Positions 4,175-45,522 of a DNA stretch of 64,000 nt are shown one piece after another. The stretch is taken from positions 28,151,501-28,215,500 of the forward strand of contig CM076152.1 of assembly GCA_038025085.1 (NCBI GenBank), in the 5' to 3' direction. This stretch comes from Tetragonia tetragonoides (taxonomy: Eukaryota > Streptophyta > Magnoliopsida > Caryophyllales > Aizoaceae). The notes below the pieces were generated by a model, which saw only the letters and a list, made by a program, of their open reading frames with translations, was not told the DNA's origin and searched no databases. Position 1 is the stretch's first letter. Every line of letters starts with the position of its first letter. The translations under genes and the position numbers were made by a program.

Positions 4175-4405
4175 AAAATTTCTATTAACTAGCTTTACCT
4201 TATAAATTGCTGTGTTTTTTACAATAGCTTGTGTTAGGTGCTGTTTTATTGGTTTGTTGTGGTGATGATGTAATGTGGTGCAGGGTTGGAGACAGTGTGT
4301 GAACCCTACCTAATAGGTGGCATACTCTCCTCTAAGACCCTTTAGGTTGTAAGGAAGTCTATTCAGTTATCAATGCAAAACTATCTTTTCATCAAAAAAA
4401 AAAAA
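4175..4405 (+). other. LINE A 3' UTR and poly(A)
   Basis: This noncoding tail contains the conserved CCTACCTAATAGG segment (4305-4317), the counterpart of the CCTAC-loop-GTAGG hairpin in other copies but with one stem pair lost. A poly(A) of 12 follows, then the satellite. Confidence 0.75.
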
Positions 4406-4708
4406 CATTGGCATCGCGTCAAACCGCCCTTACAAGCCTATCCGGGACCCAATAACCGACCCTAGGGGCCTCCCATGTCCCCTAGGCGTCTGTTGTGCGA
4501 TATGGGGTGAAAATTCTAATGCCGAAAAGTTTGCGTAAGGAGGCCCAAAACACGTCCCCTAGAGCATTCCCAGGGCTTGGTTTCCGTTTTCGCCCGAAAT
4601 TTTTTTTGGGGGCTATATTATGGCCCTTGGGGACCCCCGGTGCCCTAGGAGGGTCATACTTATCCCCGAACTCCGATATCACCCATGTCGCCCGTTTTCG
4701 GGCCTTAA
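4406..4708 (+). repeat. Satellite block 1 (one unit, 303 bp)
   Basis: One monomer of the locus satellite runs from CATTGGCATCGCG (4406) to GGCCTTAA (4708). The monomer is GC-rich, carries CCCTAGGGG palindromes, and contains a short internal duplication (CCCTAGGGG-YCTCCC-RTG, twice in about 50 bp). Open frames of 70-90 codons across it appear in many monomers but are not conserved as protein, so I treat it as noncoding. Confidence 0.93.
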
Positions 4709-4720
4709 CATTGGCATCCC
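4709..4720 (+). repeat. 5' target-site duplication of LINE B
   Basis: CATTGGCATCCC at 4709-4720 recurs at 6696-6707 directly after B's poly(A). Both copies share the variant ending CCC where nearly all other sites read CGCG, so they are two copies of one duplicated target. Confidence 0.8.
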
Positions 4721-4827
4721 CCAGCAAACAGCGCATTGGCATCGTATCGCGCATTTTCTCTCTCTAAAATGCTCTCTCCTCTCTCCTCGACAGCGCCTGT
4801 TAGCCATTAACAAAGCACTGAGTTCAA

Positions 4828-6227
4828 ATGGGGAAGAACGGGAAAGCAAAAAAAGGGAAACCTGATGCGCAAAAAAATGGGATTCAAGACGGGGATGAGG
4901 GAAACTCAGAAGCTCCACCTTGTCCCACAAAAAACCTGTTTCAAACACAAAGAACAAGCGAAAACCTTGAAAACCTAGGTCTTGTTATGCGGAATTTAAC
5001 AGAAGAATTGGAGGATCCAGATGTGATGACACCTGATGCGCAAACAAAAACAATGAAAAAAATGGAATTAGCGCAGGAAAAAATTGATTCCTGGCTGTCT
5101 AAGATGAAGGAGAAAGCACGAACCCAGTTCGCGGCTGAAGATGAGGATGAAGAGCCTGAATAGCCAAAGCAACAGGAATTCCAAACTGCAGGTAACAACT
5201 CAGCTTGGGAAAATTTTGACATTTCCAAATTAAAGAATGCGGGGTTTAAATTAGATTTCATTGCTCCTAAATTGCATGAAGGAAAACCGGTGGGTGAAAT
5301 TAATTTTAGTGACATTGAATCTGAAATAAACTACTGGAATCAAGCAGTGGTCTGTTATGTAATGGGAGCAAGGCCCCCAATTAATGTTCTAAGTGGTTTT
5401 CTTCGAAGAATCTGGGCAAAGAGAGGGATGAATAAAATTGTCATGATGAAAAATGGGTTGGTTTTGGTCAGGTTTGAATCCCTAGAACAGAGAGATGCCG
5501 TGCTACAAGAGGGGGTTTACCACTTTGACAATAAGCCCATGATTGTTAGGGCATGGTCTGAAAATATAGATTATGAAAAAGAGGAACTGACCTCAGTGCC
5601 AATTTGGGTAAAATTCCCGGGACTTAATGTGAAGTATTGGAATGCAATGGGATTAAGTAAGATAGGAAGCCTTGTAGGAAGGCCAATGATGGCAGATAGA
5701 AACACAGAGCTTAAAGTTGGAATCCAGTTTGCCAGGGTGATTATTGAAGTTGAAATTGGAGCTGCTTACCCAATAAGGTGCACTACAGGAATGAGAAGGG
5801 AAATGTTGTAGAACAGGCAGTGGAATATGACTGGAAGCCCATCTTATGCACCCACTGCAAGCAATATGGGCACTGTGAGGCAGAATGCAGGAAGAAAGTT
5901 GCTGCAGCAACTGTGATACCAACACAGATTGCAGTACCAGTACAGAAGCAACCTGACCAACAGAAAAACACTAGGGCACAGCAATGGCAGAATGTTGGGA
6001 GGGGGTGAGGAAGAATGAATAATGCAGGTAGAGGAGCAAGAGCTGGAAGGGGTAGTTACAGGCAAATTCAGCAACAACAGAAGGATAAGCCACAGACACA
6101 AAACCCCTTTGCAGCACTACAGAATGAAGGTGAAGCACAGCTAAAGCAACAGTCCAGAGACAGTACAGAACCTGAAATTCAGAAGGAGATACACACAGGT
6201 TTCAGAAGGGAAACAGAAGCAGGTTGA
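4828..6227 (+). pseudogene. LINE B ORF1, decayed
   Basis: The frame starts at ATG 4828 (MGKNGKAKKGK, matching the MGKK starts of E, L and M). The order is a charged N-terminus, a DUF4283-like domain (about 5200-5800), the knuckle CTHCKQYGHCEAEC (about 5848-5889) and an RG-rich tail. It is broken by a TAG at 5161-5163, a one-base loss near 5772 and a TGA at 6006-6008. The last residues (from about 6198) come from 3' UTR sequence beyond the deletion junction, replacing the usual ORF1 end and its ORF2 overlap. Confidence 0.88.
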
Positions 6228-6695
6228 TGCAGCTAGACCCTAAATCAGGTTACAGGAACCAGTAGAATATACAGGAAATCAGAAGGGTGTTGTTGCAGAA
6301 AAGAAGGAAGATGAATCAACTCTGGAAGATTACCCCAGCAGAGGATTCAGAGGTAGAGAGCGGAAACAAAGCAGAAGCAGGAAGAAGCAGATTGACTGGA
6401 AAACAAGGAAAGAAATGCTGTAATAATTTAGATTATTAAGTTTTGTTTTTTTGCTGTAAGACAGGAATGTTTTTTGTATTTTGTATCTGTATTCAGATAT
6501 GGGGAACCACTGCTTGTAGTCAGTGCCCCAGGAATGTAGGGTTGTAAGGAAAATAGGGATGCAGATGAAGAGGAACCCTAACTAGTAGGTGGCCTTGGAC
6601 TTGCATTACCTATGGACTGTAATCTGTGTAACATTACAGCTAGCAATAACACAATTTCTGACTTGCACCAAAAAAAAAAAAAAAAAAAAAAAAAA
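6228..6695 (+). other. LINE B 3' UTR and poly(A)
   Basis: The tail matches the 3' UTRs of C, F, G, I, J and L. It includes GGGAACCACTGCTTGTAGTCAG, a variant hairpin CCTAACTAGTAGG (6578-6590), the terminal TGACTTGCACC and poly(A). Confidence 0.8.
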
Positions 6696-7299
6696 CATTG
6701 GCATCCCATCAAACCGCCCTTACAAGCCTATCAGGGACCCAATAACCGACCCTAGGGGCCTCCCATGTCCCCTAGGGATCTCCCGTGCCATATGGGGCGA
6801 AAATATTAACGTCGAAAAGTTTGCGTACGGAAGCCCAAAACACGTCCCCTAAAGCATTCCCGGGGCCCGGTTTCCGTTTTCACCCGAAATATTTTCGGGG
6901 GCTCTATTATGGCCCTAGGGGACCCCCGGTGCCCTGAGAGGGTCATACTTATCCCCGAACTCCGATATCACCGATGTCGCCCGTTTTCGGGCCTTAACAT
7001 TGGCATCGCGTCAAACCGCCCTTACAATCCTATTAGGGACCCAATAACCGACCCTAGGGGCCTCCCATGTCCCCTAGGGGTCTCACGTGCGATATGGGGC
7101 AAAAATATTAACGTCGAAAAGTTTGCGTCCGGAGGCCCAAAACACATCCCCTAGAGCATTCCCGGGGCCCAGTTTCTGTTTTCGCCCGAAATTTTTTCGG
7201 GGGCTCTATTATGGCCCTAGGGGACCCCAGGTGCCCCGGGAGGGTCACCTTCATCCCCAAACTCCGATATCACCCATGTCGCCCATTTTCGGGCCTTAG
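6696..7299 (+). repeat. Satellite block 2 (two units, 302 bp each)
   Basis: Two head-to-tail monomers start at CATTGG 6696 and 6998. The first begins with the CATTGGCATCCC variant that forms B's 3' duplication. The block ends at GGCCTTAG/A, where LINE C begins without a duplicated target. Confidence 0.93.
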
Positions 7300-8109
7300 A
7301 ATCCAACAATGCTGCAACAGCAAGAGGAAGATCTCCAGCAGGGACAAGATCTGGATAGGGGGGATATAGTCTGAAATTAAACTGGATCACAACAAGGAAT
7401 AGAGCAAACAGACAGACTACACCAGACAGAAAGGCAGAAAGCAGAACTCAACAGGGTGTCCTGGCATTTTTGCAAGATACCAGGAACATGTGCAGGGAAA
7501 TGGACAGCAGGTTCCCGAAGGGAATCAGAAGCAGGTTGGTGCAGCCAGACTCTAAATCAGGTAGCAGGAACCAGTAGATTGCACAGGAAACCAGCAGGAT
7601 GCTGATGCAGGAAAGAAGGTGGAATGAATCAGCTCTGGAAGACTGCACCAGCAGAGGATTCAGAGTAGAGGGAAGAAGCAAAGCAGAAGCAAGAAGAAGT
7701 AGATTCAGTGGAAAACAAGGAAATTCTGTAATCAGCAGCAGGTTGATGTAGCAAGGCAGAATGAGGAATGTAACAGCTCCAAACAGAGTCGAAAAGCTAG
7801 AAGAAGTTGTAACATTTTTAGCTATATATGTTTTTGTATTTTGCTGTAAGTCAGAAATAATTTTTTGCAAATTGTAATGTTTACAGAGATGGTGAGGATT
7901 AATTTTTGTAAATTGTAATGTGTACAGAGATGGTGAACCACTGCCTGTAGTGAGTTGCACCAGATTGAAGGGTTGTAAGGTAGTAGAGGGATGTAGCAAA
8001 AAGGAACCCTACCTAGTAGGTGGCCTTGGATCTGCATTGCCTAAGGACTGTAATCTTGTTACATTACAGTGAGCAATAATACAATTTCTGACTTGCACCA
8101 AAAAAAAAA
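7300..8109 (+). mobile_element. LINE copy C, strongly 5'-truncated
   Basis: C begins within the last codons of ORF2 (CAACAATGCTGCAACAGCAAG, equivalent to the QQCSS/QQCCN region of I and L) and continues through a long 3' UTR to a poly(A) at 8101-8109. It is followed at 8110 by CATTGGCATCG. The 5' junction is blunt at GGCCTTAG. It has no coding capacity. Confidence 0.9.
8008..8020 (+). other. Conserved LINE 3' UTR hairpin (type example in C)
   Basis: CCTACCTAGTAGG can fold with a CCTAC/GTAGG stem and a CTA loop. It recurs at 19493-19505 (F), 23427-23439 (G), 25971-25983 (I), 29236-29248 (J) and 45042-45054 (L), and as CCTACATAGTAGG at 13162-13174 (D). It lies roughly 80-100 nt before poly(A). 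It may be read by the reverse transcriptase, but this is inference. Confidence 0.6.
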
Positions 8110-8120
8110 CATTGGCATCG
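8110..8120 (+). repeat. Target remnant CATTGGCATCG between LINEs C and D
   Basis: Only 11 bp of satellite separates C's poly(A) from D's 5' end. It is both C's 3' junction and D's 5' target copy; D's 3' copy is at 13266. Confidence 0.85.
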
Positions 8121-8205
8121 AAGTGAAAAATGCTTTCTCTCTCTAGAATCCCGTTTTCCCTCCAACAGCGCACGTTAGAATCCTGCTAGCTTGCTCTGAG
8201 TTTTC

Positions 8206-9632
8206 ATGGTGAGGAAATCGAAATCAACGAGAGACGAAGAACAGGAGGGTTTGGGTAATGATAAGGGAGGGAATAACAATCCAACTAGCACAATGCAGAT
8301 TCCAGATAACCTACAAAGTTCGGAGAGGCTTAATCTTGATCGAGTTGTACGCAATCTAGCTGAGGAACTCAATGCTCTGGATATACTAACCCCTGGCGTT
8401 GAAAATGGCTCAGTGCACCAAATTGAGCTTGCGAGGGAGAAAATCAACTCGTGGCTGTCTCAATTGCAGGAGGTAGCAAAAGCGAGGGGTTCTTGGGCAG
8501 ACGAGGCAGAAAGAGCAGACTCAGAACAAGGTAATCCCTCAGCTTGGGATAATTTTGATGTTTCAAAACTGAAAAATGCTGGTTTTAGCTTGAAATATGT
8601 AGAACCTGTTGTTGTAGATGGTAAAAAAAAATTAGAGAAATTCATTTGGATGATATAAAATCTGAAATAGAATATTGGAGTCAAGCTCTAGTATGTTATG
8701 TATTAGGTGCTAGACCTCCAGTGGCTGTGTTCAGTGGTTTCTTAAGGAGAATTTGGGCCAAAAAGGGTATGAGGAAGATTGCAATGATGAATAATGGCAT
8801 TGTTTTAGTTCGTTTTGATACAATGGAACAAAGAGATGCAATATTGCAAGAGGGGATTTTTCATTTTGACAATAAACCACTCATTGTGAGGCCTTGGTCT
8901 GCAAAAACTAACTATGCAAAGGATGTTTTGTATTCTGTTCCTATTTGGGTGAAATTTCCAGGCTTAGATATCAAGTATTGGAATGCAACAGGGTTGAGTA
9001 AAGTGTCAAGCCTCATAGGACGCCCTATGATGGTTGATAAGAACACAGAAATGAAGGTGGGCATCAATTTTGCTCGTGTACTGATTGAGGTGGATATAGA
9101 CTCCGATTTCCGAGACAAAGCCTATTTTAAAAATGAAAGGGGCAATGTGGTGGAACAGGCTGTTGATTATGACTGGAAACCTACAATGTGCAAATTTTGT
9201 AGCCAGTATGGTCATGTTGAGGAAAATTGCAGGAAAAGGCTAGGCCCTGGGCTACCACAGAACACAGCTTAGCACCCTGCACAACCTGCACAGCCAGTGC
9301 AACCAGCACAGCCTATACAGCAGCTGGTTAGGCAGAGGCAGCAAGATCAGGGGGGTGCTGCTCAACATCAAAGGCAGAGAGAATGGCAACCTATTGGAAG
9401 AGGCAGGGGTAGAAGGGGAGGAAGATTTGGAGGGGGTAGAGGCAGGGCAGAGTTTGAAGGCCAGTCAAGACCTATACCTGTAGTCACTACTCATGAGATT
9501 GCACAGCAAGCTGAAGGGGAGGTAACTCCAATGCACAACTCTTTCAGTATACTTAACATGGAGGGGACTGTGGAAAATGAGGTTGATAAACAAAGGGGGG
9601 AGATGCCTGTACCTCCTGATGGTCATGGATAG
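8206..9632 (+). pseudogene. LINE D ORF1, decayed
   Basis: The start is ATG 8206 (MVRKSKSTRDEEQ). A first frame to about 8658 holds the charged N-terminus. A frameshift in the A-run at 8621-8631 moves the DUF4283-like domain into the next frame (8646-9272; GARPPVAVFSGFLRRIW, SVPIWVKFPGLDIKYW). The knuckle CKFCSQYGHVEENC is near 9188-9229. A TAG at 9270-9272 interrupts before the Gln- and RG-rich tail (9297-9632). The stop overlaps ORF2 in ATGGATAG. Confidence 0.88.
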
Positions 9633-12600
9633 CATGTTAGTATGAAATGTTAGAGGCCTCAATGGGCCTAATAAGCAAAAGGAGGTGAGCCTCTTTTGCA
9701 AAAGAAATAAAATTGGTTTTGTGGCTTTTGTTGAAACCAAAATTAGGCAGGTTAATTTTGAAAATTGCAAAAAAATATGTCTGGGGAGATTGGGAGTCAT
9801 TTATTAATTTAACTGACCACCACTTGGGGAGAATATGGATTAAGTGGTTACCTCAAGAGTTCTCTGTAACTGTGATCTTCTCTTCAGCATAGCTAGTCAC
9901 ATGTCAGGTCACTCACCTTAGGCTCCAGGAGGTGTTTTTTGTAAGCATTGTGTATGGTTTCAATGAAAAAGAAGAAAAGAAGGTTTTGTGGCAGAATTTG
10001 AGGGATTTTGCTGGAAGTTGTGCTTTGCCTTGGTTAATTGCTGGAAATTTCAACAATGTGTTGAGCCAGGAAAATAGAGCAGGAGGAGCTCCTGTTACCT
10101 TTGCTGAGACTGTTGATTTTCACGAGTGTATAAATGATTGTTTGATTACTGAATTGAGCTGGACAGGCCATGAGTACACATGGAACAATAGGCATGAGAA
10201 TGGTGTGAGGGTTTACTCTAAGATTGACTGGATTTTTGCAAATTTTCAGTGGGTGCAAAATTTTGATCAGTGCACTGTGAGTTTTATGCTAGAGGGGATT
10301 TCTGATCACTCCCCCATGCATATTAGTTTGTCCTCTTGTAATCAGCAAAAAAGGGGTAATTTCAGATACTTTAACATGTGGAGTAGGCACCCTGAATTTT
10401 TACAAGTGGTGTCACAAGCTTGGAGTCAGCAAACAAAGGGCACAAAGATGCTCCAGCTCTATCACAAACTTAAGGCAGTCAGATATGATTTGAAGAAGCT
10501 GAATAGAGAAGAATTCTCTGATATCCTAGCTAGAGTTGAACAGGCTAGAAGTGCTTTGCAAATAGCTCAAACATGTGGAAATAATTGCCCTGGTGATATT
10601 TTGCTGCAGAAGTCTGAAGGGGAGGCTAGAAAATCTTTTTGTGACATTAATTTTGCTGCTGAATCCTTTTTACAGCAGAAAAGCAAAATGAAATGGGTGC
10701 AATTAGGGGATGATAATACTCAATTCTTCCATGCATTGCTGAAACACAGAACACAGAAGAACATGGTTGCTGTTTTAAAAAAGGTTAATGGGGTCATTGT
10801 CATTGAAACTGGGCAGATCTTTGAAGAATTTATCTCCTTCTACAAGGGGATGCTTGGTGTAAAGGAAGCCACAAGAGTGCCTGCAACTGAGTTTGTTTTT
10901 AAAGCTGGGAATGTTTTATCAATTGAACAGCAAATGCAATTGATAGCTCCAATTAGCCACAAAGAAATCAAAGATGCACTGTTCTCAAGATATCAACAAG
11001 AGCCCTGGCCCAAATGGTTTCTGCAGTGGATTTTTTAAAGATGCTTGGGGGGTTGTAGGTGCTGATGTCTGTAATGCTGTACAAGACTTCTTCAGCTCAG
11101 GCAAAATGCCGAAACAGCTCAATGCAACTACCATATGTTTGGTGCCTAAGGTACAAAATCCTGAGTTTGCTTCTGACTTTCGTCCCATAGCTTATTGCAA
11201 CACATTATATAAATGCATCTCAAAGGTTCTGTGCAATAGACTAGCTCAAGTTTTACCTGATTTAACTTCATTGAATCAAGGTGCTTTTGTTGCAAAAACA
11301 TCTATTGTACACAATATCATGATATGTCAGGACTTAATTAGGCATTATAGGAGGACAAAATACCACTGCTAGGTGTTTGATGAAGATTGACCCGAGAAAG
11401 GCTTATGACACCATACACTGGGACTTCCTGGATGAGATGCTCACAGGTTATGGGTTCCCTGTTACCTTTAGTAACTGGCTGATGACTTGTGTGCAAAGTG
11501 CAAGCTTTAATGTGGGTTTGAATGGAGAATGTGATGGTTATTTTGAAGCAAAAAGGGGTATAAGGCAGGGAGATCCTATCTCCCCTTTAATTTTTGTGCT
11601 GGTAATGGAATTTCTTTCAAGACTCCTGAAGCTTGTGAGTTTATCCCCTGATTTCCAGTTCCATCCTATGTGTAAAGCTGTCCAATTGAGTCATCTGTGC
11701 TTTGCAGATGATCTCATGGTGTTTTGTAGAGCAAACAAAAGCTCTGTGACCAAGGTGATGGAATGTTTCTCTTATTTCTCACAAGTCACAAGGCTACAAG
11801 CAAACAAGGATAAGTCTCATATATATACTGCTGGGGTGGGGGAGTCAGTCAAGAGAGATCTCCATCTGTTATCTGGGTTCCAGGAGGGGGATTTCCCTAT
11901 GAGGTATTTGGGTGTTCCACTCTCTCCCTCTAAATGGAACAAAATGGATTGTGCTTGCTTGGTGGAAAAGATAACAAAGAGGTTGCATATTTGGGCCTCT
12001 AAAAGCCTATCCTATGCTGGCAGGGCTCAGTTAATTAACTTAGCTCTTATGAGTCTGCATGTATATTGGGCTAGCATTTTCATTTTACCTGCTGGAATTA
12101 TCAAGACAATTGGGAGGAAATGTAGAGAATTTTTATGGAGAGGGGATGATCAGAAACAGGGTGTCAGTCTTGTTGCATGGGACATTGTATGCAGACCTAA
12201 AAAACATGGTCGCTTGAATTTCAAGAACTGCAGAAATTTCAACTATGCTTTAAATGGAAAGCACATCTGGGACTTGGCTGCAAAAAAGGATAATATGTGG
12301 GTGCGCTGGATAAATGGGGTCTATTTAAAAAATGAAGACTTTTGGCAATATGTTCCTAACACTGGAGGCAGTTGGGCATGGCAGAAGATAAATAAGAGCA
12401 AACAATTATGTTAGAAGGGATACACTGCAGGTAATAGATGGGCTTTGACAGCAAATGGTCAATATACAGTTCAGAGTGGGTACAATTTCCTTGTAGGAAA
12501 ATTACCCAAGGTGAGACATGCTAATCTCATATGGGGAAAAGTTGCTAGGCCAAGACACAGCTTCCGTCTTTGGCTCTCCCATGCAGGCAGGCTTTTGACA

Positions 12601-13006
12601 AGGGACAGGTTGCAAAGAATGGGATTCCTAGCAGGGAGTGAAGATTGTAGTTTTTGTCACATACAGGTGGAAACACACAAGCATCGGTTTTTTGAGTGCC
12701 CCAGATCTCTTATGTTGTTGACTGCAGTAAAGAGTTGGATGGGCTGCAAGGCAACTGCCACAGATATTGAGGGGATGCTAAACTGGATAAGCAGGGAGAA
12801 GGGCAGCAAATTCAGAAAGGAATTTTATGCTGCATCACTAGCATTGGATCTGGAAGGTCCAAAATGCTATTTACTTCAATGTGGGAAAATAAACAGAGGC
12901 AACAATTCTACAGCAACTGAAGTTTGATGTTCTGGCTCGTGTGGAAGGCAGGAGAAGATATAAATGCACAAGATTGGATAGATTGTTTCTTACTAATTTG
13001 ATGTAA
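9625..13006 (+). pseudogene. LINE D ORF2 (endonuclease-RT), decayed
   Basis: ATG 9625 is followed within seven codons by a TGA replacing the Trp of the WNVRG endonuclease motif. Most of the endonuclease is open at 9932-11038 (YTWNNRH, KIDWIFAN, ISDHSP). The first Asp of the usual GGDFNNV is Asn here (AGNFNNV), so the domain would be doubtful even if repaired. Frameshifts near 10990 and 11360 split the RT (INKSPGPNG; KAYDTIHWDF; KRGIRQGDPISPL; LCFADDL at about 11696-11716). The zf-RVT-like end (12445-12927) finishes in another frame near 13006. Confidence 0.9.
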
Positions 13007-13265
13007 TAGGGTCCTGTTTCTTATTGCTGTTTTTGTTTTGTTAAGCTGTATTTAGCTTTATTGCAGTTTGTATTTTTGGTGTGTAAGGTGTGTTCTCATG
13101 TTTTGGTGTGGGGTGAGGTTAATTTGTATTGGTAAACTCTAGGCTTGTATGAGCTGCCAACCCTACATAGTAGGTGGGTCGGACTTATACAAAGGCCTGT
13201 AGGTTGTATGGTGCTTGATTTCCATCTTTTATTACAGTAGCTATCTTTAAACCCCAAAAAAAAAA
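13007..13265 (+). other. LINE D 3' UTR and poly(A)
   Basis: The noncoding tail carries the hairpin variant CCTACATAGTAGG (13162-13174): the stem is intact and only the loop differs from other copies. It ends in a 10-nt poly(A). Confidence 0.75.
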
Positions 13266-13866
13266 CATTGGCATCGCGTCAAACCGCCCTTACAAGCCTA
13301 TCTGAGATCCAATAACCAACCCTAGGGGAGTCCTATGTCCCCTAGGGGTCTCCCGTGCGATATGGGTGAAAATACTAATGCCGAAAAGTTTGCGTCCGGA
13401 GGCCCAAAACATGTCCCTAGAGCATTCCGAGGGCCCGATTTCCGTCTTCGCTCGAAATTTTTTTGGGGGCTCTATTATGGCCCTAGGGGACCCCCGGTGC
13501 CCCGGAAAGGTCATACTTATCCCCGAACTCCGATATCACCCATGTAGCCCGTTTTCGGGCCATGACATTGGCATCGCGTCAAACCGCCCTTAAAAGCCTA
13601 TCAGGGGCCCAATAACCGACCCTAGGGGCCTCCCATGTCCCCTAGGGGTCTCCCGTGCGATATGGGGTGAAAATATTAACGTCGAAAAGTTTGCGTCCGG
13701 AGGCTCAAACATGTGCCGTAGAGCATTCCTGAGGCCCGGTTTCCATTTTCGCCCGAAAGTTTTTCGTGGGCTCTATTATGGCCCTAGGGGACTCCCGGTG
13801 CCCCGGGAGGGTCACCTTCATCCCCGAACTCCGATATCACCCATGTCGCCCGTTTTCAAGCCTTAA
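13266..13866 (+). repeat. Satellite block 3 (two units, about 300 bp each)
   Basis: Monomers start at 13266 and 13566. The second ends at CAAGCCTTAA, where LINE E starts with no repeated CATTGG at its 5' side. Confidence 0.92.
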
Positions 13867-13932
13867 TTACGTAATGCTCTCTTCTCTCTCCTCAACACTG
13901 CTCATCCGCCATTGATGAAGCCGTGAGTCTCG

Positions 13933-19186: not shown

Positions 19187-19198
19187 CCAGTGGCATCG
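19187..19198 (+). repeat. Target remnant between LINEs E and F
   Basis: CCAGTGGCATCG is the target with T to G. It is all the satellite left between E's poly(A) and F. Confidence 0.8.
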
Positions 19199-20140: not shown

Positions 20141-20152
20141 CATTGGCATCGC
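20141..20152 (+). repeat. 5' target copy of LINE G
   Basis: CATTGGCATCGC precedes G; the matching CATTGGCATCGC at 23529 follows G's poly(A). Confidence 0.8.
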
Positions 20153-23829: not shown

Positions 23830-23841
23830 CATCGGCATCGC
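23830..23841 (+). repeat. 5' target copy of LINE I (CATCGGC variant)
   Basis: CATCGGCATCGC precedes I, and CATCGGCGTCGC follows it at 26071. The shared T to C change is found only around this copy. Confidence 0.8.
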
Positions 23842-29334: not shown

Positions 29335-29347
29335 CATTGGCATCGCG
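29335..29347 (+). repeat. Target remnant CATTGGCATCGCG between LINEs J and K
   Basis: Thirteen bases of satellite serve as J's 3' junction and K's 5' target copy. K's other copy is at 39638. Confidence 0.85.
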
Positions 29348-29391
29348 TGCATGTGGAGAACTTCTGTCTCTAAGCGATTTCTCTCTCGGGC

Positions 29392-34112: not shown

Positions 34113-34114
34113 TT

Positions 34115-34127
34115 TGGTATCAAAGCC
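34115..34127 (+). other. Primer-binding site, tRNA-iMet type
   Basis: TGGTATCAAAGCC lies 2 nt after the LTR and resembles the complement of the plant initiator tRNA-Met 3' end (TGGTATCAGAGC) with one difference. Confidence 0.8.
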
Positions 34128-34176
34128 CAGCTTGAGAGAAGCTCGCTCATCGGAAAGTTGCCTAGAGACGGAAGCC

Positions 34177-36207
34177 ATGGTGAACATGGAAGAACTAGAG
34201 AAAATCGTGATCGGGCCGGATGCCCGGATCGACGCACTAGAGGCCCAGGTGCACGAGATGTCCTCCGCGAGCTTGCGGGAGGACCTTGACCATATCCATA
34301 GTCAACTACAGTCATTGTGGGATCAATGCACTACGATCTCGAGTGCCGTTGCTAACGGTGGTGGTGTGTCGGGGTCGAGAAGGGTGAAGCCCCCTTAGCC
34401 TCGGACATGCGATGGAGCTAGAGACTCCAAGGAAGTAGAAAATTTCGTCTTCGACCTAGAACAATACTTCCGAGTCAGTGGACTGGAAGACAACCATAAG
34501 GTCGACACCGCAGTGATGTACCTTGCGGACGATGCGAAGTTGTGGTGGCGTACGAAGTATGCCAAGATTGAGGTGAAAACTATGGTGATAAATAGATGGG
34601 AAGCCTTTAAGAAGGAACTCAAGGATCAGTTCTACCCGGAGAATACCGAATTCATCACTCAACGAAAGCTGAAGTCGATAAAGAACACCGGGTCCATCCG
34701 AGACTATGTGAAGCAGTACTCGGCGTGCATGCTCGAGATCAAAGACATGAAAGACAAAGATCGTTTGTTCAAGTTCATTGATGGGTTGAAAGACTGGGCA
34801 CAACAAGAGTTGACGCGACAAAAACTAGACACATTGTCCGCGGCCATGAGTGCGTCTGAATGACTCATGTACTACCAGACAGGGAAGGATCCCAACACGA
34901 AGAAAGGAACACCCCCACCTACTCCGGTAGTAAACCGAGTAGTGGGGACTGGCTCACTGACTGGTTTGAATAGCAGTGGGAACAACAGGTTCCGCAACGG
35001 GGGAAGTGACCCATGGAAGACATGGGCAGGTCCGGGCGCATCATTCAACCGTGACAACAGAATTGAATCTTCCTCCGTGAAGAGACTGATGGCTTGCTTC
35101 CTTTGTAAGGGGCCGCATCGGATGGCAGAGTGTCCTCACAAAGGGGACTTGAGCGCACTCCAGCAAAATCTCTCTAAGATGTCCGTGGAGTCCAACAGTG
35201 CCAATGAGAATGATACCTACACAAGCGACGACATCGAAGAGGAGGACGTGCCGCAAGTGGGAGCTGTTCGCATGTTGTGTGCTCTCGGAAAGGGAACCAC
35301 CCCATCAAAACCCAAATCAACTGAGCTTATGTACGTCGATCTAGCGATCAACGGGCGTAAGACACAGGCGATGGTGGACACAGGTGCAACCCACAACTTT
35401 GTGGCTGGATCCGAAGCCAAAAGATTGGGTTTGAAGATTGATCGTGAAGGAGGTAGTATAAAAGCTATGAACTCGGAAGCCAAACCATTCCACGGGATAT
35501 CTAACGGAGTGCCCGTAAGGATTGGGGAATGGAGTGGCCGACTGGACTTCACGGTAACGCCACTCGACGACTTCTGCCTTGTATTGGGGATGGACTTCCT
35601 TCGTGCTACGAAAGCGGCTCCCATGCCCCATCTGAGTTCGTTGTTGATAATGGGAGAAAGCCCTTGTCTCATTAAAGCATCGGGCCCGAATACGAAGACT
35701 GAGAGTCGGAAGGGACAGTTATTCTCAGCAATGCAGCTAGAGAAGGGGTTGAAGAGACAAGAAGTAACTTTCCTCGCGACCTTATCGGTCAAGGAAGAGT
35801 GCCAAGGGGAGACTACCCCGCCCATAGTGTTGGCCCTCCTCGAGGGGTATGGTGACCTTATGCTAAAGGATCTAACTCAAGTCCTTCCGCCTCCTAGGTC
35901 GGTGGACCACCAGATTGAGTTGATCCCGGGAGCGACCTTGCCGAAAAGAAACCCCTACCGTATGGCACCTTCTGAGTTGGCAAAATTGAGGAAGCAATTG
36001 GATGGGCTCTTAGAAGCTGGATTTATACGGCCGTCCAAGGCTCCCTATGGAGCCCGAGTGCTATTCCAGAAGAAACAAGATGGAAGTCTTTGGTTGTGTA
36101 TCGACTACCGGGCGCTGAGCAAGGTCACAGTGAGGAATCACTGCCCCATTTCGTTGGTTGCGGATTTGTTTGATCAGCTCGGGGGAGCTGTCTACTTCAG
36201 GAATTAA
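34177..36207 (+). pseudogene. Gypsy gag-protease-RT, first part, decayed
   Basis: The start is ATG 34177. One frame carries gag (a coiled-coil-like N-terminus, then FYPENTEF and the retrotransposon gag domain to about 34860), the knuckle CFLCKGPHRMAEC (about 35095-35133), the protease site MVDTGATHNFV (about 35370) and the RT start (LPKRNPYRMAPSEL; CIDYRALSKVTVRNHCPI). TAG at 34396-34398 and TGA at 34861-34863 interrupt it. A frameshift just before 36207 moves the remainder into another frame. It is a pseudogene. Confidence 0.92.
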
Positions 36208-37858
36208 ACTTGAGATCGGGATATCACCAAGTCCGGATTTCAGAGGGAGACGACCCGAAAACTAATTGTGTCACACGGTACGGGGCATCTCAGTGGCTAG
36301 TGATGCCATTCGGATTGACAAATGATCCCGCTACCTTCTGTACCCTGATGAACCATGTTTTCCACGGTTACTTGGACAATATCGTGGTGGTCTATTTGGA
36401 CGACATTGTGGGAAAAGGAAAAATCTGTATGGACCCGAAGAAGATCTGTGCCATCAGAGAATGGCAACCTCCAAGGAACACAACAGAGCTTCGTTCATTC
36501 CTTGGCCTTGCTAATTATTATCGGCGATTCATTGCAGGGTACCCGGGCATTGTCGCTCCGCTCACAGACTTACTCAAGACGAATCAAGTTTGGGAATGGT
36601 TTGAGGACCGTCAGGGAGCGTTCGAGAATTTGAAAGCAGTTGTGACAAGGGAACCGGTATTGGCTCTCCCAGATACCACCAAACCCTTCGAGGTCGAGAC
36701 AGAGGCTTCAGACTTCGCCCTCGGAGGGGTACTACTGCAAGAGGGACATCCGGTCGCCTAGAAGAGTAGGAAGTTGAATGGAGCCGAACGGCGGTACGCA
36801 GCTCAAGAGAAAGAGTTGTTGGCTATCGTTCATTGCTTAAGGGTGTGGAGACACTACTTGTTAGGGTCGAAGTTTCTTGTTCGCACAGACAACACGGCAG
36901 CAAGTCACTTTCTAACTCAACCAAAACTGACGGGTCGACAAGCTCGGTGGCAAGAACTGCTTGCAGAGTTTGATGTGGAGTTCATCTATCGACCTGGAGT
37001 CAGGAACAGAGTTGTGGATGCTCTCAGCCGGTGAGCGGAACTAGCTGCCCTCAAACTTGTGGGACATCTATCAACAAGCAACGTGACCACGACAGTCCGC
37101 GACCAAATCGAGGAGCACTTAGATCAGGATCCGATGGTGAAGACCGTCAAGGAGCTAGTCCAAGAGGGAAAGACTAGACAATTCTGGATCGAAGAGGGCC
37201 TTGTCTTCACTAAGGGCCACAAAATGTTTGTCCCGAGGGCCGGGGGCCTCTGGAAGAAGCTACTTAGTGAGTGTCACGACACCCTCTTGGCGGGACATCC
37301 GGGGTGGCAAAGAACGTTGAGTTTCTTGAAGCAGGGTTACTACTGGCCGCAGATGAAGGAAGACGTGATGAGTTATACTCAAACATGTCTCGTCTGCCAA
37401 CAAGACAAGGTAAATCGACAGAGGCCGGGTGGCTTGTTAGTTCCCCTCCAAGTCCCGACCCAGCCAATGGAGAGTGTGTCCATGGACTTCATCAACGGGC
37501 TGCCGAAGGTGAGGCCATTGTCGGCGATTATGGTGATTGTTGACAGGTTCTCGAAGTATGCAACGTTCATTCCCATGCCAAAGGCCGGCAGAGGGGAGGA
37601 GACATCAGTCCTCTTTTTCAGGCACATTGTCAAGTTTTGGGGATTGCCACGAAGCATAGTGAGTGATCGAGACCCCCGCTTCACCAGCATGTTTTGGGCT
37701 GAGTTGTTCAAGCTGCTTGGTTCGGATCTTAACATCTCTTCAGCCTACCACCCCCAAACAGATGGGAAGACTGAGAGATTTAACTGTCTCCTCGAAGAAT
37801 ATCTCCAGCACTTTGTGAGTGCCTACCAGAAAGAGTGGGTTAGGCTCTTGGATTAGCC
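36208..37858 (+). pseudogene. Gypsy RT-RNase H-integrase, second part, decayed
   Basis: The frame 36210-37856 continues with LRSGYHQVRI and the catalytic VYLDDI (about 36390-36410). It then jumps straight to MDPKKICAI, so the segment normally between these motifs (about 70 residues by family comparison) is missing. RNase H follows (EASDFALGGVL, RTDNTAASHF), with stops at 36759-36761 and 37032-37034. The integrase has the HHCC finger (HPGWQRTL..CLVCQQDK), FINGLPKV, VDRFSKYATF and YHPQTDGKTERFN. Confidence 0.92.
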
Positions 37859-38388
37859 CAACTTTGTTTCAATGCCCAGAAGAGCTCTTCTTCTAACACA
37901 AGCCCCTTCGAGCTTGTGACGGGACAACAACCACTGCCCTACCGCACACCCTAGACGAGCCATACAAAGGCCAGAGCAGAAAAGCCTATGAGTTCACACG
38001 AGAATGGAAGCAGAATACCGACATTGCTCGTGGGTACTTGGAGAAAGCTTCCAAACACATGAAGAAGTGGGCAGATCAGAAGAGGAGGCCACTTGAGTTC
38101 AATGTGGGAGATTTAGTTATGGTGAAGGTGAACCCGGAACACATGCGGTTTCTCAGAGGAAGGGACAAGCGTCTGTTCCGCATATATGAAGGCCCCATCC
38201 TCATCACAAAAAGGGTGGGAAGAGCTGCTTACAAAATAGAGCGTCCAGCTTGGATGAAAGTACACCCGGTCTTTCATGTGAGCTGCCTGAAGCCCTACTA
38301 TCCAGATCTAGCAGATCCTGCTCACAACAAGAACAAACGCGGCAACATCAGGACAAAGCCATCGCCAGCGACAACTTCTGCAGATTGA
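37859..38388 (+). pseudogene. Gypsy integrase C-terminal part
   Basis: Frameshifts occupy 37859-38010. The frame then opens at 38038-38388 with FNVGDLVMVKVNPEHMRFL and VHPVFHVSCLKPYYPD, the usual C-terminal integrase block of chromovirus-like gypsy elements. It ends at TGA 38388 after SPATTSAD with no chromodomain motifs between that block and the PPT. Confidence 0.88.
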
Positions 38389-38438
38389 GTCAGCCATAAC
38401 TGACCTTTTGTCATGTCGACGAGGGCGTCGACAACTCT

Positions 38439-38450
38439 AGTGGGGGAGAA
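38439..38450 (+). other. Polypurine tract of the nested gypsy element
   Basis: AGTGGGGGAGAA directly abuts the 3' LTR and would prime plus-strand DNA. Confidence 0.85.
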
Positions 38451-38959
38451 TGTTAGGTTCCACCTACACCACCTTGTATTTTAATGCTTTCCTTTACTTT
38501 TCTTGCATTGTAATATGTCTCTAACGCGCTTCCTGCGTGTTGACCCTTGGACATGTCTTTACGCTTTCTAGTTCCCTAGTAACATGTCTCTAAGGCACTT
38601 CCTGCGTCTTGACCCTTGGACATGTCTTTAAGCTTTCTTGTTCTTTACTTTTAGGAGTAGATGTCGAGTATGAAAGTTATGCACTCTTGATGTATACTCC
38701 TGTCAGAATGAATAAACCTTTTAAATGTCTTTATGGAGGAAGCAGTCCTCCATATCGATGTATTGATGTCAATGCTTGTTGTTGTTAAACTTTGTTGATT
38801 ACTTTCATCATCCAACCCCTTTCACTAACTCCGTCCCTCCCTCTCCCTCTCGTGTCCACGGACACCACATCGACGTTCCTTGTGTACGGCTGTCACTCTT
38901 GCCTCTAGGAGACAAGAGCGCGCCTCACGTTCCGCAACAGACAAAGGCGGACCATAACA
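38451..38959 (+). repeat. 3' LTR of the nested gypsy element
   Basis: It is 509 bp, the same length as the 5' LTR, with the same internal duplication and about 29 substitutions. Confidence 0.93.
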
Positions 38960-38964
38960 CAAAG

Positions 38965-39496
38965 GATACAGATGGCTTATGGGTGTGCAGGAGAAGCTGC
39001 CTGTGGCTAGACAGATATGGAATAGAACTACCACACCCAAGCATGCTTTTGTGTTGTGGTTAGCCTCTATGAATAGGTTCTCACCAAAGACAGGCTAGTG
39101 AGATTTTAGATTCAAGGGGTTGATCCTGTGTGCAGCTTATGCAGGGTGGAAAATGAGAGCTATGATCATCTCATGTGGCGATGTGAGTACACTCGGATTC
39201 TGTTTCAGAAAGCTTTTAACTGGCTGGGAATTGCTAATATACCAGAGAACTTGCACAGAATGCTCAGATGGATAGACAGAAAGCCATGGAGAAGGGCGAA
39301 GAAGCATGCAGTCAGTGATACCCTAGCTGCTGTGGTGTATCATGTATGGCTGGAAAGAAATAGGCGCATTTTCAAGAAGACAACAATCCCTAAGATGCAG
39401 ATTCTAGATATGATTAAGCTTAATGTTTGTACTAGAATTAAATTTGTTTTTTCTTCACCTAAATCTGTAATAGTGAGTAGATACATTATGTCTTGA
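38965..39496 (+). pseudogene. LINE K ORF2, 3' part (zf-RVT-like C-terminus)
   Basis: This is the continuation of K's ORF2 after the gypsy insertion. The open part at 39128-39496 has the Cys/His cluster CSLCRVENESYDHLMWRC and the conserved AVVYHVWLERNRRIF segment. The sequence upstream of it is frameshifted. TGA at 39494-39496. Confidence 0.88.
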
Positions 39497-39637
39497 GGTG
39501 CTTAGAGAGCCTATTAGCTTGTTGTCCTAGCTGGAAGCAAGTTAAGTAGGTTGTGTATGGTTGTTATGGTTTTGGTAATAAAACAATTAATTTGTTACCC
39601 AAAAAAAAAATAATAATAAAAAATAAAAAAAATAAAC
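39497..39637 (+). other. LINE K 3' UTR and A-rich tail
   Basis: The short 3' UTR has AATAAAACAATTAATTTG and an A-rich tail interspersed with TAATAATAA; the satellite resumes at CATTGG 39638. Confidence 0.8.
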
Positions 39638-40527
39638 CATTGGCATCGCGTCAAGCCGCCCTTACAAGCCTATTAGGGACCCAATAACTGACCCTAGGGG
39701 CCTCCCATGTCCCCTAGGGATCTCCCATGCGATATGGGGCAAAAATATTAACGTCGAAAAGTTTGCGTCCGGAGGCCCAAAACACATCCCCTAGAGCATT
39801 CCCGGGGGCCCAGTTTCTGTGTTCGCCCGAAATTTTTTCGGGGGCTCGATTATGGCCCTAGGGGACCCCCGGTGCCCTAGGAGGGTCACCTTCATCCCCA
39901 AACTCCGATATCACCCATGTCGCCCGTTTTCGGGCCTGAACATTGGCATCGCGTCAAACCGCCCTTACAAGCCTATCAGGGACCCAATAACCGACCCTAG
40001 GGGCCTCCCATGTCCCCTAGGAGTCTCCCATGCAATATGGGGCGAAAATATTAATGCCGAAAAGTTTGCGTCAGGAGGCCCAAAACACGTCCCCTAGAGC
40101 ATTCCCAGCGCCCGATTTCCATTTTCGCCTGAAATTTCTCCGGGGGCTCTATTATGGCCCTAGGGGACCCCCGGTGCCCCGGGAGGGTCCTACTTAACCC
40201 CGAACTCCGATATCACCCACGTCGCCCGTTTTCGCGCTTTAACATTGGCATCGCGTCAAACCGCCCTTACAAGCCTATCAGGGACTCAATATCCGACCCT
40301 ACGGGCCTCCCATGTCCCCAAGAGGTCTCCCGTGCGATATGGGGCGAAAATATTAACGTCGAAAGTTTGCGTCCGGTGGCCCAAGACACGACCCCTAGAG
40401 CATTCCCGAGGCCCGGTTTCTGTTTTCGCCTGAAATTTTTTCCAGGGCTCTATTATGGCCTTAGGGGGCCCCCGGTGCCCCAGGAGGGTCATACTTATCC
40501 CCAAACTCCAATATCGCCCATGTCGCC
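39638..40527 (+). repeat. Satellite block 7 (three units)
   Basis: Monomers start at 39638, 39941 and 40243 (303 and 302 bp, and a third of about 285 bp that lacks its end after CATGTCGCC). This is the longest uninterrupted stretch of the array in the window. Confidence 0.93.
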
Positions 40528-40641
40528 GGCTGGGCCCTCTCTATGATTTTGATCGCTCTTCTCTCTCAAAAAAAAAAAAAAAATGCTCTCTTCTCTCTCC
40601 TCTACACCGCTCGTTCGCCATTGACGCAGCTGTGAGTTTCA

Positions 40642-42039
40642 ATGGGGAAGAAAGACAAGGCCAAACGAGGGACAGAAAAGCACGATGACATTGGGGAAAA
40701 CTCAGCTCCACTGTGTCCTACAAAAACTGCGAATCATAGGCAAACTACAAGCACTAATCGAGACAACCTAGATCGGGTTGTGCGCAACCTTACCGATGAA
40801 TTGGAGGCACCGGAGGTCATGACTCCTGAAGTACAAACAGAAACAGTTCAACAAATGGAACTAGCAAGAGAGAAGATCAATACGTGGCTCTCGAAAATGA
40901 AGGAAAAGGCAAGAACACAATTCTCGTCTGAAGATGAGGATGAAGGCTCAGACCAAGCCAATCAGCAAGAAACTGCAATTGCAGGTAATACCTCAGCTTG
41001 GGAAAAATTTGATATCTCCAAATTGAAAAATGCGGGATTTAAATTGGATTTTATTGCGCCTACAATGCATGAGGGAAAACCTGTTGGGGAAATTAGTTTC
41101 ATGGATATTGAATCTGAAATTAATTACTAGAATCAAGCGGTTGTTTGCTATGTTATGGGGTCAAGACCACCAATTAATGTGTTAAGTAGATTTCTAAGAA
41201 GAATTTGGGCAAAACGGGGGATGAACAAAATTGCTATGATGAAAAATGGCTTGGTTTTGGTTCGTTTTGACTCCCTAAAGCAGAGGGATGCTATAATACA
41301 GGAGGGGGTCTATCACTTTGACAATAAACCCATGATAGTAAGGCCATGGTCTGAAAATGTGGATTATGCACAAGAGGAATTGACCTCGGTGCCTATTTGG
41401 GTAAAATTCCCTGGACTTAATGTGAAATACTGGAATGCAAAGGGATTGAGCAAGATTGCAAGTCTTGTAGGAAGGCCAATGATGGCAGATAGAAACACTG
41501 AGCTTAAAGTAGGGATTCAATATGCCAGAGTGATGATTGAAGTAGAAATTGGAGTTGAATACCCTAACAAGGTACACTATAAGAATGAGAAGGGCAATAT
41601 TGTGGAACAGGAAGTGGAATATGACTGGAAGCCTATTCTATGCAGCCATTGCAAACAATATGGGCATAGTGAAGCTGGATGCAGAAAGAAAGCTACTGCA
41701 GGTCCTGTGATCCCAACATTGCCTGTACAGAATCAACCAGCACAACAAGAAAACCCTAGGAAACAGCAGTGGCAGAATGCGGGGAGTAGGAGAGGAAGAA
41801 TGGGTAATGCAGGGAGAGGACTAAGAGCTGGAAGAGGCTATTACAGACAAATTTAGCAACAACAAAAGGACAATCCACAGACACAGAATCCTTTTGTAGT
41901 ACTGCAAAATGAAGGAGAAGCACAGGAAGGGCAACTGTCACAGATTGAAAATGCAGAACCAGACATACAGGAGGATCTGCACACAGGTATGGTACCATCA
42001 CATGGTAAGCCTCCTATCTTGACTGGTAGTCATGGATAG
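40642..42039 (+). pseudogene. LINE L ORF1, two nonsense codons
   Basis: The start is ATG 40642 (MGKKDKAKRGTEKH). One frame runs to TAG 42039 with stops at 41128-41130 (a Trp of NYWNQ) and 41854-41856 (a Gln). The DUF4283-like domain spans about 40990-41620, with knuckle CSHCKQYGHSEAGC (about 41641-41682) and an RG-rich tail. CACACAGGTATGG at about 41976-41988 is the donor-like sequence at which B's deletion begins. The end overlaps ORF2 in ATGGATAG. Confidence 0.9.
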
Positions 42040-44741
42040 GATCCTTATATGGAATGTAAGAGGCCTGAATGACCCAAATAAGCAGAGGGATGTTGCACTT
42101 TTCTGCAAAAAGAACAATTGTGGCTTGGTAGCTTTCCTAGAAACAAAAATTAGAGGAATTAATCTAGAAAAATGCAAAAATAGGTTCATGCCAGGGTGGG
42201 AATCCTACAGTAATCACAATGACCATAGGTTGGGAAGAATTTTGATAAGATGGTTGCCAGATATTTTTCATGTTGTTGTGATTTTCTCTTCTGTGCAAAT
42301 GATTATCTGTAAGGTAATTAATCTAGTGAGGAAAAAAGAATTTGTGGTGAGTTTTGTGTATGGGCAAAATGAAAAAGAAGACAGGAAACAATTATGGAAG
42401 GATCTTAGTGATTTTGCAATTAATTGTAATAATCCTTGGATTGTTGGTGGGGATTTTAACAATGTCATGCTACCTAGTAATAGACAAGGAGGGCAACCAG
42501 TTACTCATGCTGAAATACAAGATTTTAAAACCTGCATTGAAGGCTGTTTCCTCACTGAAATGGGATGGTCTGGGTGCCAGTACACATGGAATAATAGGCA
42601 TGAGGAGGGGGGGAGAGTATACTCAAAAATAGACTGGGTTTTTACCAACAGCCTCTGGTTGCAGGAGTTTGATCAGTGCACTCTACAGTTTCTTTCAGAG
42701 TGTGTATCTGACCACTCTCCTATTTGCTTAACTCTCCAAAAAGAAACCACAAAAAGAAACATCCCCTTCAAATTCTTTAACATGTGGAGCCTCCACTCTG
42801 AATTCCAAGCATTGGTGCAGCAAGCCTGGAATTGCAGAACACAGGGCACAAAAATGTTCAGAGTGTATCAGAAGCTGAAAAGAGTGAGAACTGTTCTGAA
42901 AAAACTAAATAGAGATGAATTTAGTGATATCTTAGCTCAAGCTGATATTGCTAGAACCAGGGAGCTTGGCAAGAGTGCTTCCTGACCTAGTCTCTGTGAA
43001 CCAGGGAGCTTTTGTGGCTCAGAGATCAATAGTACACAACATAACGATTTGCCAGGATCTTATCAAGCATTACAATAGGAAACAATCCTCTCCTAGATGC
43101 TTGATGAAGATTGACCTAAGGAAAGCCTATGACACAATTCATTGGAGTTTTGTCAAGGAAATGCTGCAAGGGTATGGTTTCCCTAGAAAATTCATTGGTT
43201 GGGTACTAGAGTGCATCCAAACTGCAAGTTTCAGCATCAACATGAATGGGGAGGCTCATGGTTTTTTTCATGCTAAACGTGGCATTAGGCAGGGAGATCC
43301 AATATCTCCACTAATCTTTGTGTTGGTAATGGAACATCTATCAAGAATCCTGAAAATAGCCTGTATGGATAAGAACTTCAGCTGGCATCCCATGTGCAAA
43401 GAACTTGCACTGAGTCACCTATGTTTTGCTGATGACTTGATGTGCTTTTGCAAAGCAGCACCTGAATCTGTGAGTATCATGATGAACAGCTTAAATTATT
43501 TTTCACAGGCTACTGGTTTGTTTGCAAATAAAGAGAAATCTAACATGTATATTGCTGGTGTAAGTGAACAAATGAAGAGTGAGCTGTTAGGCTTATCAGG
43601 GTTCAGGGAGGGTACACTACCCATGAAGTATCTGGGTGTTCCACTGTCTCCATCTAAATGGAGCAAAATTGACTGTGAATGCTTGGTGGATAAAATGACA
43701 AAAAAGCTTCAGATTTGGGCATCCAGAAATCTCTCGTATGCAGGAAGGGCTCAACTTATTAATTCTGTATTATTCTCTATACATGTATACTGGTCAAGCA
43801 TTTTTATAATGCCTGCTGGGGTACTTAAAAGTGTAGAGCAGAAATGCAGATCATTCCTGTGGGGTTCTACTGATCTGAAACAGAAGACAAGTTTGGTGGC
43901 ATGGGACATGGTATGCAGACCAAGGAAAAATGGTGGAATAAACATTAAAAATTGCAAATGGTTCAATATTGCTTTAAATGGGAAGCATATTTGGGATCTA
44001 GCCACAAAAAAAGACACACTGTGGGTTAAATGGATAAATGGGGTTTATTTGAAGGGAGTTAATTTCTGGAACTATGCTCCTGTATGGGGCGCCAGTTGGT
44101 ACTGGAAAAAGCTTAATAAAATCAAAAGCTATTTCCAGGACCAATATTCAGCTAGAGGAGTGTGGAAGGGCACTACTGATGGGCTCTATTCTGCTGCAAG
44201 TGGATACAGTGTACTGACAGGGGTCATGCCAAAATACAGGCATGCTAACCTGATTTGGGGGAAGACAACCATGCCTAGGCAAAGTTTTTGCCTGTGGTTG
44301 GCTCAATTGGGAAGACTGCTAACAAAGGATAGGATGCAGAAGATGGGTTTCCTGGATGGAGATGCCATGTGCAACCTGTGCAAAGTGAAGACAAAAAACC
44401 ATAACCACCTGTTCTTCAGGTGTAGTGTATCAGCAGGGATCCTGGATCAGCTAAGAGGATGGCTACAGATGTCAGCAAGAGCAAACTCTATCCAGGGCAT
44501 GCTCAACTGGATAAGCAGGCAAAAGAGCTCCAGATTCAGAAGGGAAGTCTATGCAGCAGGACTTGCAGCAACAGTGTACTGGATATGGAGATGCAGGAAC
44601 ATCCAATATTTTGAGGGAAGCAGAATGTCATTGGTGCAGATCTTGCAGCAGATTCAGCAGGTGGTTAGAATTAGAATACAGCAATGCAGCAGTAAGAGGA
44701 AAATCAACAGCAAGGACAGGAGATGGATAGAAAATGTGTAA
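42032..44741 (+). pseudogene. LINE L ORF2 with RT-fingers deletion
   Basis: ATG 42032 gives MDRILIWNVRGLNDPNKQ. The endonuclease is open with VGGDFNNVML, YTWNNRH, KIDWVFTN and VSDHSPICL. At about 42957-42960 the linker (DIARTR) is joined out of frame to LARVLPDLVSVNQGAFV, removing the rest of the linker and the RT fingers, including the KSPGPDGF motif. From 42948 the new frame is open for 597 codons through MKIDLRKAYDTIHW, LCFADDL and the zf-RVT-like end to TAA 44741. The RT is not functional. Confidence 0.92.
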
Positions 44742-45142
44742 TTTTTTTTTCTGAAATATGTGTCTGTATTTTGGTGTTACTGTAAAAGCATGCAGGAGGT
44801 TCAGCAGGAAAATCTGATTCAGATGTAAGCAGCTCAGCAGAAGGAGGAAGATGCAGAATCCAGCAGCTCAGCAAGGCTAGAGAACCTGTAATAGTTTAGA
44901 TTACTATGTGCTGTATTTTGCTGTAAATCAGGAATGTCTGTTTTTGTTTGTTTCAGACATGGGGAACCACTGGTTGTAGTGAGCTACTCCAGTACTATTT
45001 TGGGTTTTGTATGGTTGTAAAGGGATGTAGAAAAAAGGAACCCTACCTAGTAGGTGGCCTTGGATTTGCATTGCCTATGGGCTGTAATCATGTTACATTA
45101 CAGCTAGCAATAATACAATTTCTGACTTGCACCAAAAAAAAA
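44742..45142 (+). other. LINE L 3' UTR and poly(A)
   Basis: Short 3' UTR of about 400 bp with the GGGGAACCACTGGTTGTAGTG segment, the hairpin, TGACTTGCACC and a 9-nt poly(A). Confidence 0.78.
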
Positions 45143-45443
45143 CATTGGCTTCGCGTCAAACCGCCCTTACAAGCCTATCAAGGACCCAATAACCGACCCT
45201 AGGCACCTCCCATGTCCCCTAGGGATCTCTCGTGCGATATGGGGCGAAAATATTAATGTCGAAAAGTTTGCGTTCGGAGGCCCAAAACACATCCCCTAGA
45301 GCATTCCCGGGGCCCAATTTCTGTTTTCGCCCGAAACTTTTTCGGGGGCTCTATTATGGCCCTAGGGGACCCCCGGTGCCAAGGAGGGTCATACTTATCC
45401 CCGAACTCCGATATCACCCATGTCGCCCGTTTTCAGGTCTTAA
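45143..45443 (+). repeat. Satellite block 8 (one unit, 301 bp)
   Basis: The last satellite monomer in the window runs from CATTGGCTTCGCG to GTCTTAA. No satellite is seen to the right of it. Confidence 0.93.
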
Positions 45444-45522
45444 CATTGGCATGGCTTTCTCTCTCTAGAATGCTCTCTCCTCTCTCCAGTGCTCGTTAGC
45501 CATTAACGTTGCTCTGAGTTCC

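Follow-up and report, generated by a model that had tools for sequence, protein, structure and literature searches.

Organization of the locus

The stretch of DNA analysed here (hereafter the window) consists of 64,000 nucleotides of contig CM076152.1 of Tetragonia tetragonoides (assembly GCA_038025085.1, positions 28,151,501 to 28,215,500 of the forward strand). It contains twelve copies (c1 to c12) of long interspersed nuclear elements (LINEs), all on the + strand, and neighbouring copies are separated either by a 302-bp satellite, in one to three monomers, or by a bare copy of the insertion site (Table 1). These LINEs are of the plant L1 type, and their 3′ ends lie at one fixed position of the satellite, between TTAA and CATTGGCATCG. 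The most likely basis for this is a preference of the LINE endonuclease (EN) combined with target-primed reverse transcription, a reading drawn from sequence comparison to which we give a probability of about 0.85. A preliminary description of the window had claimed eleven junctions at which poly(A) passes into this motif, a common orientation and scattered 5′ truncation points; all eleven junctions were found, with 0–2 substitutions in the motif, the orientation is shared by all twelve copies, and the truncation points do differ.

The assignment to the plant L1 type is based on the layout of c5, in which open reading frame 1 (ORF1) has a DUF4283 domain and ORF2 has an apurinic-type endonuclease (Exo_endo_phos), a reverse transcriptase (RT) and a zf-RVT domain, together with the poly(A) tails, 5′ truncations and target duplications. 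The solved structures that best fit the RT region of c5 are 8c8j, an entry named RNA-directed DNA polymerase, and the ORF2 proteins of LINE-1, with R2 proteins lower. The RT groups with plant LINEs; its named relatives are mostly plant LINE proteins, and the closest, among the best 120 of 3253 matches, has 46% identity. No restriction-like endonuclease family, as would be expected of an R2-like element, was listed for the scanned ORF2 pieces, and the EN domain had no match among PDB sequences at E 0.001.

The 302-bp satellite and its insertion site

The window holds thirteen satellite monomers, which are 83–96% identical. The satellite intervals start at the site and also stop there, save for small deletions (7298, 40527), and all five uninterrupted monomer junctions read from satellite directly into the site. 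At 19188 and 39638, a C precedes the motif at the end of the tail. A survey based on homology of the 3′ untranslated regions (3′ UTRs), which missed 19188, found ten 3′ ends in the window; in nine of these the A tail is followed by an exact CATTGG, and in the tenth, at 26071, by CATCGG. Eleven 5′ junctions are visible: an ~11-bp duplication adjoins the satellite at four (4709, 20141, 23830 and 45444), three have the arrangement LINE–site–LINE (8110, 19188 and 29335), and four either have no duplication or have a small deletion (7298, 13866, 26372 and 40527).

Mouse L1 elements carry monomers at their 5′ ends, and the 302-bp unit might similarly be the LINE's own 5′ monomer rather than its target, since every run of one to three monomers in the window is flanked by LINEs. 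This explanation is hardly credible, however, given that whole monomers and a target duplication also precede 5′-truncated copies (20141, 23830), that the three LINE–site–LINE junctions have no monomers at all, and that LINE-free tandem monomer junctions occur genome-wide.

An inverted repeat, GCCCGTTTTCGGGC, lies in the satellite just before the insertion site, at a distance of ~5 to 18 bases. The corresponding hairpin was rejected as a special feature of the site, its folding energy being ordinary (z −1.21); similarly, raised conservation exists at the site, but other parts of the monomer show the same. The satellite pattern gave no matches in viral_contigs, and a scan against Rfam at the gathering threshold gave none.

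A second array on C1

In a 200-kb stretch of a second chromosome, C1 (17,500 bases of which lay outside the analysis), LINE and satellite alternate nearly throughout. The 3′-UTR survey found 42 LINE ends in this stretch, and over the window and C1 together an exact CATTGG comes straight after the A tail at 50 of 52 ends; the other two, CATCGG and TACATACG, are both joined to satellite. The scoring used the first bases past the tail, and at C1 26300, 32531 and 186155 a second copy of the site lies beyond them. The CATCG part that follows CATTGG is more variable and is replaced by other sequence at seven C1 ends (23070, 26300, 32531, 37844, 122243, 183650 and 186155). One C1 insertion, which is flanked by satellite and by an older truncated LINE, has a 14-bp duplication, CATTGGGTTGGTCA; this suggests that it inserted at a site lacking the CATCG part and that the upstream satellite and CATTGG are sufficient.

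At three places on C1 (~24.914, 24.971 and 25.022 Mb), satellite monomers pass into minisatellite-like repeats of the GGGACATGGGCGCTTGGACATAGG type.

Depth and independence of the insertions

The RTs fall into three tiers of identity. Copies c5, c7, c8, c9, c11 and c12 are 69–90% identical; c1 and c4 are 61% identical to one another and 55–61% to that group; and c10 has only 41–45% amino-acid identity with all the others. For c1, c4 and c10, blastn detects no resemblance of the 3′ UTR either to the common type or among the three, and yet all of them end at the same base, so that at least four mutually dissimilar 3′ UTR types meet one site in the window, with more types on C1. The window LINEs come together as a single group in a tree that includes relatives from other plants (Shimodaira–Hasegawa-like approximate likelihood ratio test, SH-aLRT, 92), and when C1 copies were added, a host clade (96) comprised c10, the main group and a reversed, off-site element; both were quick trees, the second with a thinned set of relatives. 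Either, therefore, use of the site is old in the host clade and has been abandoned at least once, or it was acquired twice.

Another way to obtain the same junction repeatedly would be through a founder LINE–satellite unit, multiplied by unequal crossing-over, from which the junction was inherited. Some duplication of this sort is visible on C1, where three near-identical units lie 2183 bp apart, the pair 44690/165802 is 96% identical with a common 5′ start, and copies 99049 and 100163 share a flank. The varied truncation points, the dissimilar 3′ UTRs, the RT divergence and the 5′ duplications, however, show that duplication of a single unit cannot by itself be the cause, and the same pattern recurs in the divergent c10 family on C4, C10, C12 and C14. 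As the sole cause, the founder unit is thus refuted by these comparisons, and as a general account it is very improbable. The preliminary description had proposed separate insertions at one fixed site and had named descent from one ancestral unit by tandem duplication as a refutation: the separate insertions stand, the copies not being one duplicated unit, and some tandem duplication, as in the 2183-bp units, also occurs.

Extra target copies and ORF1-only derivatives

In several full-length copies, the leader is preceded by two to three target copies with short filler, which set it apart from the satellite or poly(A). Such ladders occur at 8 of 21 full-length 5′ junctions and at none of 14 truncated ones (Fisher p 0.012), in a table that omits junctions lacking a target duplication and cases of satellite deletion. 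These values are corrected: as first scored they were 8/20 and 0/17 (other junctions), p 0.004, after which two false motif hits (101036, 121286) were removed and 29335 was reassigned to full length. In related pairs of copies (93–98% identical), the filler differs in four pairs and is common to one, possibly duplicated, pair. This observation favours ladder formation at insertion and disfavours the idea that the ladders are inherited 5′ transductions.

Copy c2, which retains ORF1 and has lost EN and RT, matches a C1 copy (~120292–122252; C1:24945292–24947252) at 94% identity over 1926 bp. The two represent a ~2-kb ORF1-only derivative with the same internal loss in different target contexts on two chromosomes, which indicates trans-mobilization to the same site; on the sequence, then, elements without EN and RT appear to have been moved in trans. 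Two further ORF1-only copies on C1 have other breakpoints.

On-site and off-site copies in the genome

The genome searched comprises 752.8 Mb in 27 contigs. The sequence A6CATTGGCATCG has 798 matches in it as compared with none for the reversed control, which rules out chance, and the 100 places listed, on C1 to C3, are clustered. Family-A 3′ ends number 1379, and at most 861 of them (~62%) have CATTGG within 30 bases, against a chance expectation of 0.75%; 861 is an upper bound, at least one place having been counted twice. On C1, 30 of the 42 listed real family-A ends lie within the 0.2-Mb array (density ratio 682). The earlier proposal that the arrays are a reservoir for the LINE, indeed the main one, is supported. 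For one satellite subtype, the exact junction is empty in 97 cases and filled in 125, so both states of the site exist; for a second subtype, CGTAAAAC, the empty form with TTAA was found five times.

Exact CGTCAAAC junctions are listed on C4, C5 and C10–C16, and the C1 array has CGTAAAAC, which makes two satellite subtypes after the site; the split might possibly correspond to a difference between subgenomes or chromosome groups.

Within the c10 family, 9 of the 18 matches examined (the best 18 of 40) are on site, two of them with one substitution and the window copy included. Among these 18, on-site matches make up 9 of the 13 with at least 86% identity and none of the five below it.

Several observations weigh against the explanation favoured here. 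About 38% of family-A 3′ ends lack an exact CATTGG. Of the 1379 family-A places, 100 were listed, and 20 of these, none with CATTGG, were fetched (all 18 in the arms and two in arrays). One proved to be a chance match (L041) and was dropped, the two in arrays (L047 and L048) have the site with one substitution, CATTAGCATCG, and the 17 true LINE ends in the arms all have unrelated flanks. The other nine of the 18 c10-family matches are off site (two flank-sharing pairs among them), and another member of the host clade, a divergent LINE on C1, lies reversed at a different site. Local duplications raise the counts above the number of insertion events, and the ladder test is small, with at least two duplicated pairs among its rows. 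The "strict" targeting of the preliminary description must therefore be given up: a strictly target-specific element would have nearly all its copies on site, and here the figure is at most 861 of 1379.

A divergent reverse LINE at C1 ~24.978–24.983 Mb (L024) adjoins a satellite monomer and has a different apparent duplication, CAYCAAAAGCATGG.

A distinct, non-specific subfamily of off-site copies is not supported: in a 3′-UTR tree of 42 family-A ends from C1 and the window together with 19 fetched ends, off-site rows are interspersed among on-site ones (14 changes, as against a shuffled mean of 14.8; 195 of 500 shuffles were as low). The same lineages therefore insert both on and off site. 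One off-site copy on C1 (L030) is 99.6% identical over 1013 bp to c9 of the window, and two off-site arm copies (L035 and L045) are 99.9% identical to one another.

The abundance of off-site insertions of the same lineages and the presence of TTAA in the site might be taken to mean that the LINEs insert widely and survive mainly in weakly selected satellite arrays, the exact base reflecting no more than the ordinary TT/AA preference of L1. Yet LINE bodies make up most of the C1 array and offer many alternative sites, and 50 of 52 ends (window and C1) nonetheless meet CATTGG, while the young arm copies with 99.9% mutual identity persist outside the arrays. Differential survival is consequently improbable as the explanation, and insertion at a preferred site remains the reading adopted here.

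A possible mechanism

Target duplications of ~11 to 14 bp are present at many 5′ junctions. The LINE endonuclease would prefer to nick the bottom strand near CAATGTT/AAGG, and the TT end left by the nick could then pair with the poly(A) tail and allow target-primed reverse transcription. Recognition would need the upstream satellite plus CATTGG. No AACATTGG was seen at the arm junctions fetched, which implies that an 8-base preference alone is insufficient and that the enzyme must either recognize a longer sequence or be tethered through chromatin. Dispersed copies might result from a second, promiscuous mode. At the 5′ end of the RNA, the enzyme may jump onto the target DNA, and this would leave the extra target copies in full-length copies only.

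On the whole, we lean slightly towards a broader picture in which a base-exact satellite home, apparently evolved apart from that in Cuscuta, has been kept to ~41% RT divergence and in which homing and dispersed modes coexist with trans-mobilized ORF1-only derivatives and with RT jumps that write extra target copies. The case illustrates how a satellite region can turn into a reservoir for LINEs whose lineages still leak into the arms. With many filled and empty sites in the genome, the rules by which a plant L1 endonuclease recognizes its target become directly testable.

Relation to known systems

R1, TRAS, SART and Tx1 of animals insert at a fixed site in repeated DNA. With these, the present LINEs share a fixed site in repeats and an apurinic-type endonuclease, a likeness that concerns site and enzyme rather than clade placement, and plants would thus gain a base-exact LINE target comparable to that of R1 or TRAS. 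The hosts and the repeats are different, and off-site copies seem commoner here than is known for the animal elements. In one published account, the early-branched, Tx1 and R1 groups contain most of the target-specific families, and the Tx1 and R1 clades are named as target-specific with an apurinic-like endonuclease (PMC4640811).

The preliminary description had held strict satellite targeting not to be known from plants. Satellite-targeting plant L1 as such is already known from dodder, in a similar but looser case: 91% of the L1-CS elements of Cuscuta europaea are associated with the CUS-TR24 satellite, the insertions falling in two neighbouring parts of its 389-bp monomer that are marked by the motifs TTCTA and TTTCAA (PMC8091179). 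Both systems have plant L1s concentrated in one satellite, preferred positions, target duplications and heterogeneous LINEs sharing sites; they differ in that the present LINEs use one base-exact site and in monomer length (302 bp), the satellites being set apart by length and not by alignment. Four C. europaea LINE proteins, not labelled as to membership in the CUS-TR24 elements, fall in another supported cluster of the tree. Celine of Populus is likewise a plant L1 with a preferred chromosomal niche, the centromere, in which nested copies occur; it has a unique target duplication for each copy and, unlike the present LINEs, lacks a fixed site (PMC11288735). A 2025 review of plant transposon niches contains, in the part available, no closer case (PMC12477314).

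The literature matches listed, in which subscription papers were mostly outside the scope, describe no further case of a plant L1 tied to one exact base of a satellite. As far as the literature was searched, what is new comprises one base-exact site common to deeply diverged families, two modes of spread, the extra 5′ target copies confined to full-length copies, and the 2-kb ORF1-only derivative that two chromosomes carry at this site.

Features of the window

Table 1. Features of the window (positions count from its first nucleotide).
Position	Strand	Feature	Evidence
1..4405	+	LINE c1, 5′ part beyond window; 3′ end on site; forms second deep lineage together with c4	sequence comparison, junction
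4406..4708	+	satellite monomer, begins at site	
4709..4744	+	c2 5′ junction: target copy, filler, second target copy (ladder)	
4745..6695	+	LINE c2: ORF1 retained, EN and RT lost	
6696..7298	+	pair of satellite monomers in tandem, joined at an uninterrupted site (6998)	
7299..8109	+	LINE c3, truncated in 3′ UTR region	
8110..8120	+	site joining two LINEs, no satellite between	
8121..13265	+	LINE c4, 5′ leader present; second deep lineage	
13266..13866	+	two satellite monomers	
13867..19187	+	LINE c5: ORF1 13927–15264 (DUF4283), EN 15307–16164, RT and zf-RVT 16026–18710	
19188..19198	+	site between c5 and c6, CAGTGGCATCG	
19199..19592	+	LINE c6, 3′ fragment of 394 bp	
19593..20140	+	two satellite monomers, deletion in second	
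20141..20151	+	c7 5′ target duplication	
20152..23528	+	LINE c7, truncation near EN end	
23529..23829	+	satellite monomer	
23830..23840	+	c8 5′ target duplication, CATCGGCATCG	
23841..26070	+	LINE c8, truncation in RT	
26071..26372	+	satellite monomer, site is CATCGGCGTCG	
26373..29334	+	LINE c9, truncation in ORF2	
29335..29345	+	site between c9 and c10	
29346..39637	+	LINE c10, most divergent family; split by long terminal repeat (LTR) retrotransposon 33604–38959	
39638..40527	+	three satellite monomers, last one shortened	
40528..45142	+	LINE c11, 5′ leader present, ORF2 partly missing	
45143..45443	+	satellite monomer	
45444..45454	+	c12 5′ target duplication, CATTGGCATGG	
45455..49219	+	LINE c12, 5′ leader present, 3′ end lost	

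The protein relatives of the LINEs and of the LTR elements are all distant and come mostly from plants. In the LTR retrotransposon that splits c10, the LTRs are 94% identical, and in another, at 49857–55151, they are 99.4% identical. An integrase fragment (49206–49901) lies upstream of the latter, where c12 breaks off.

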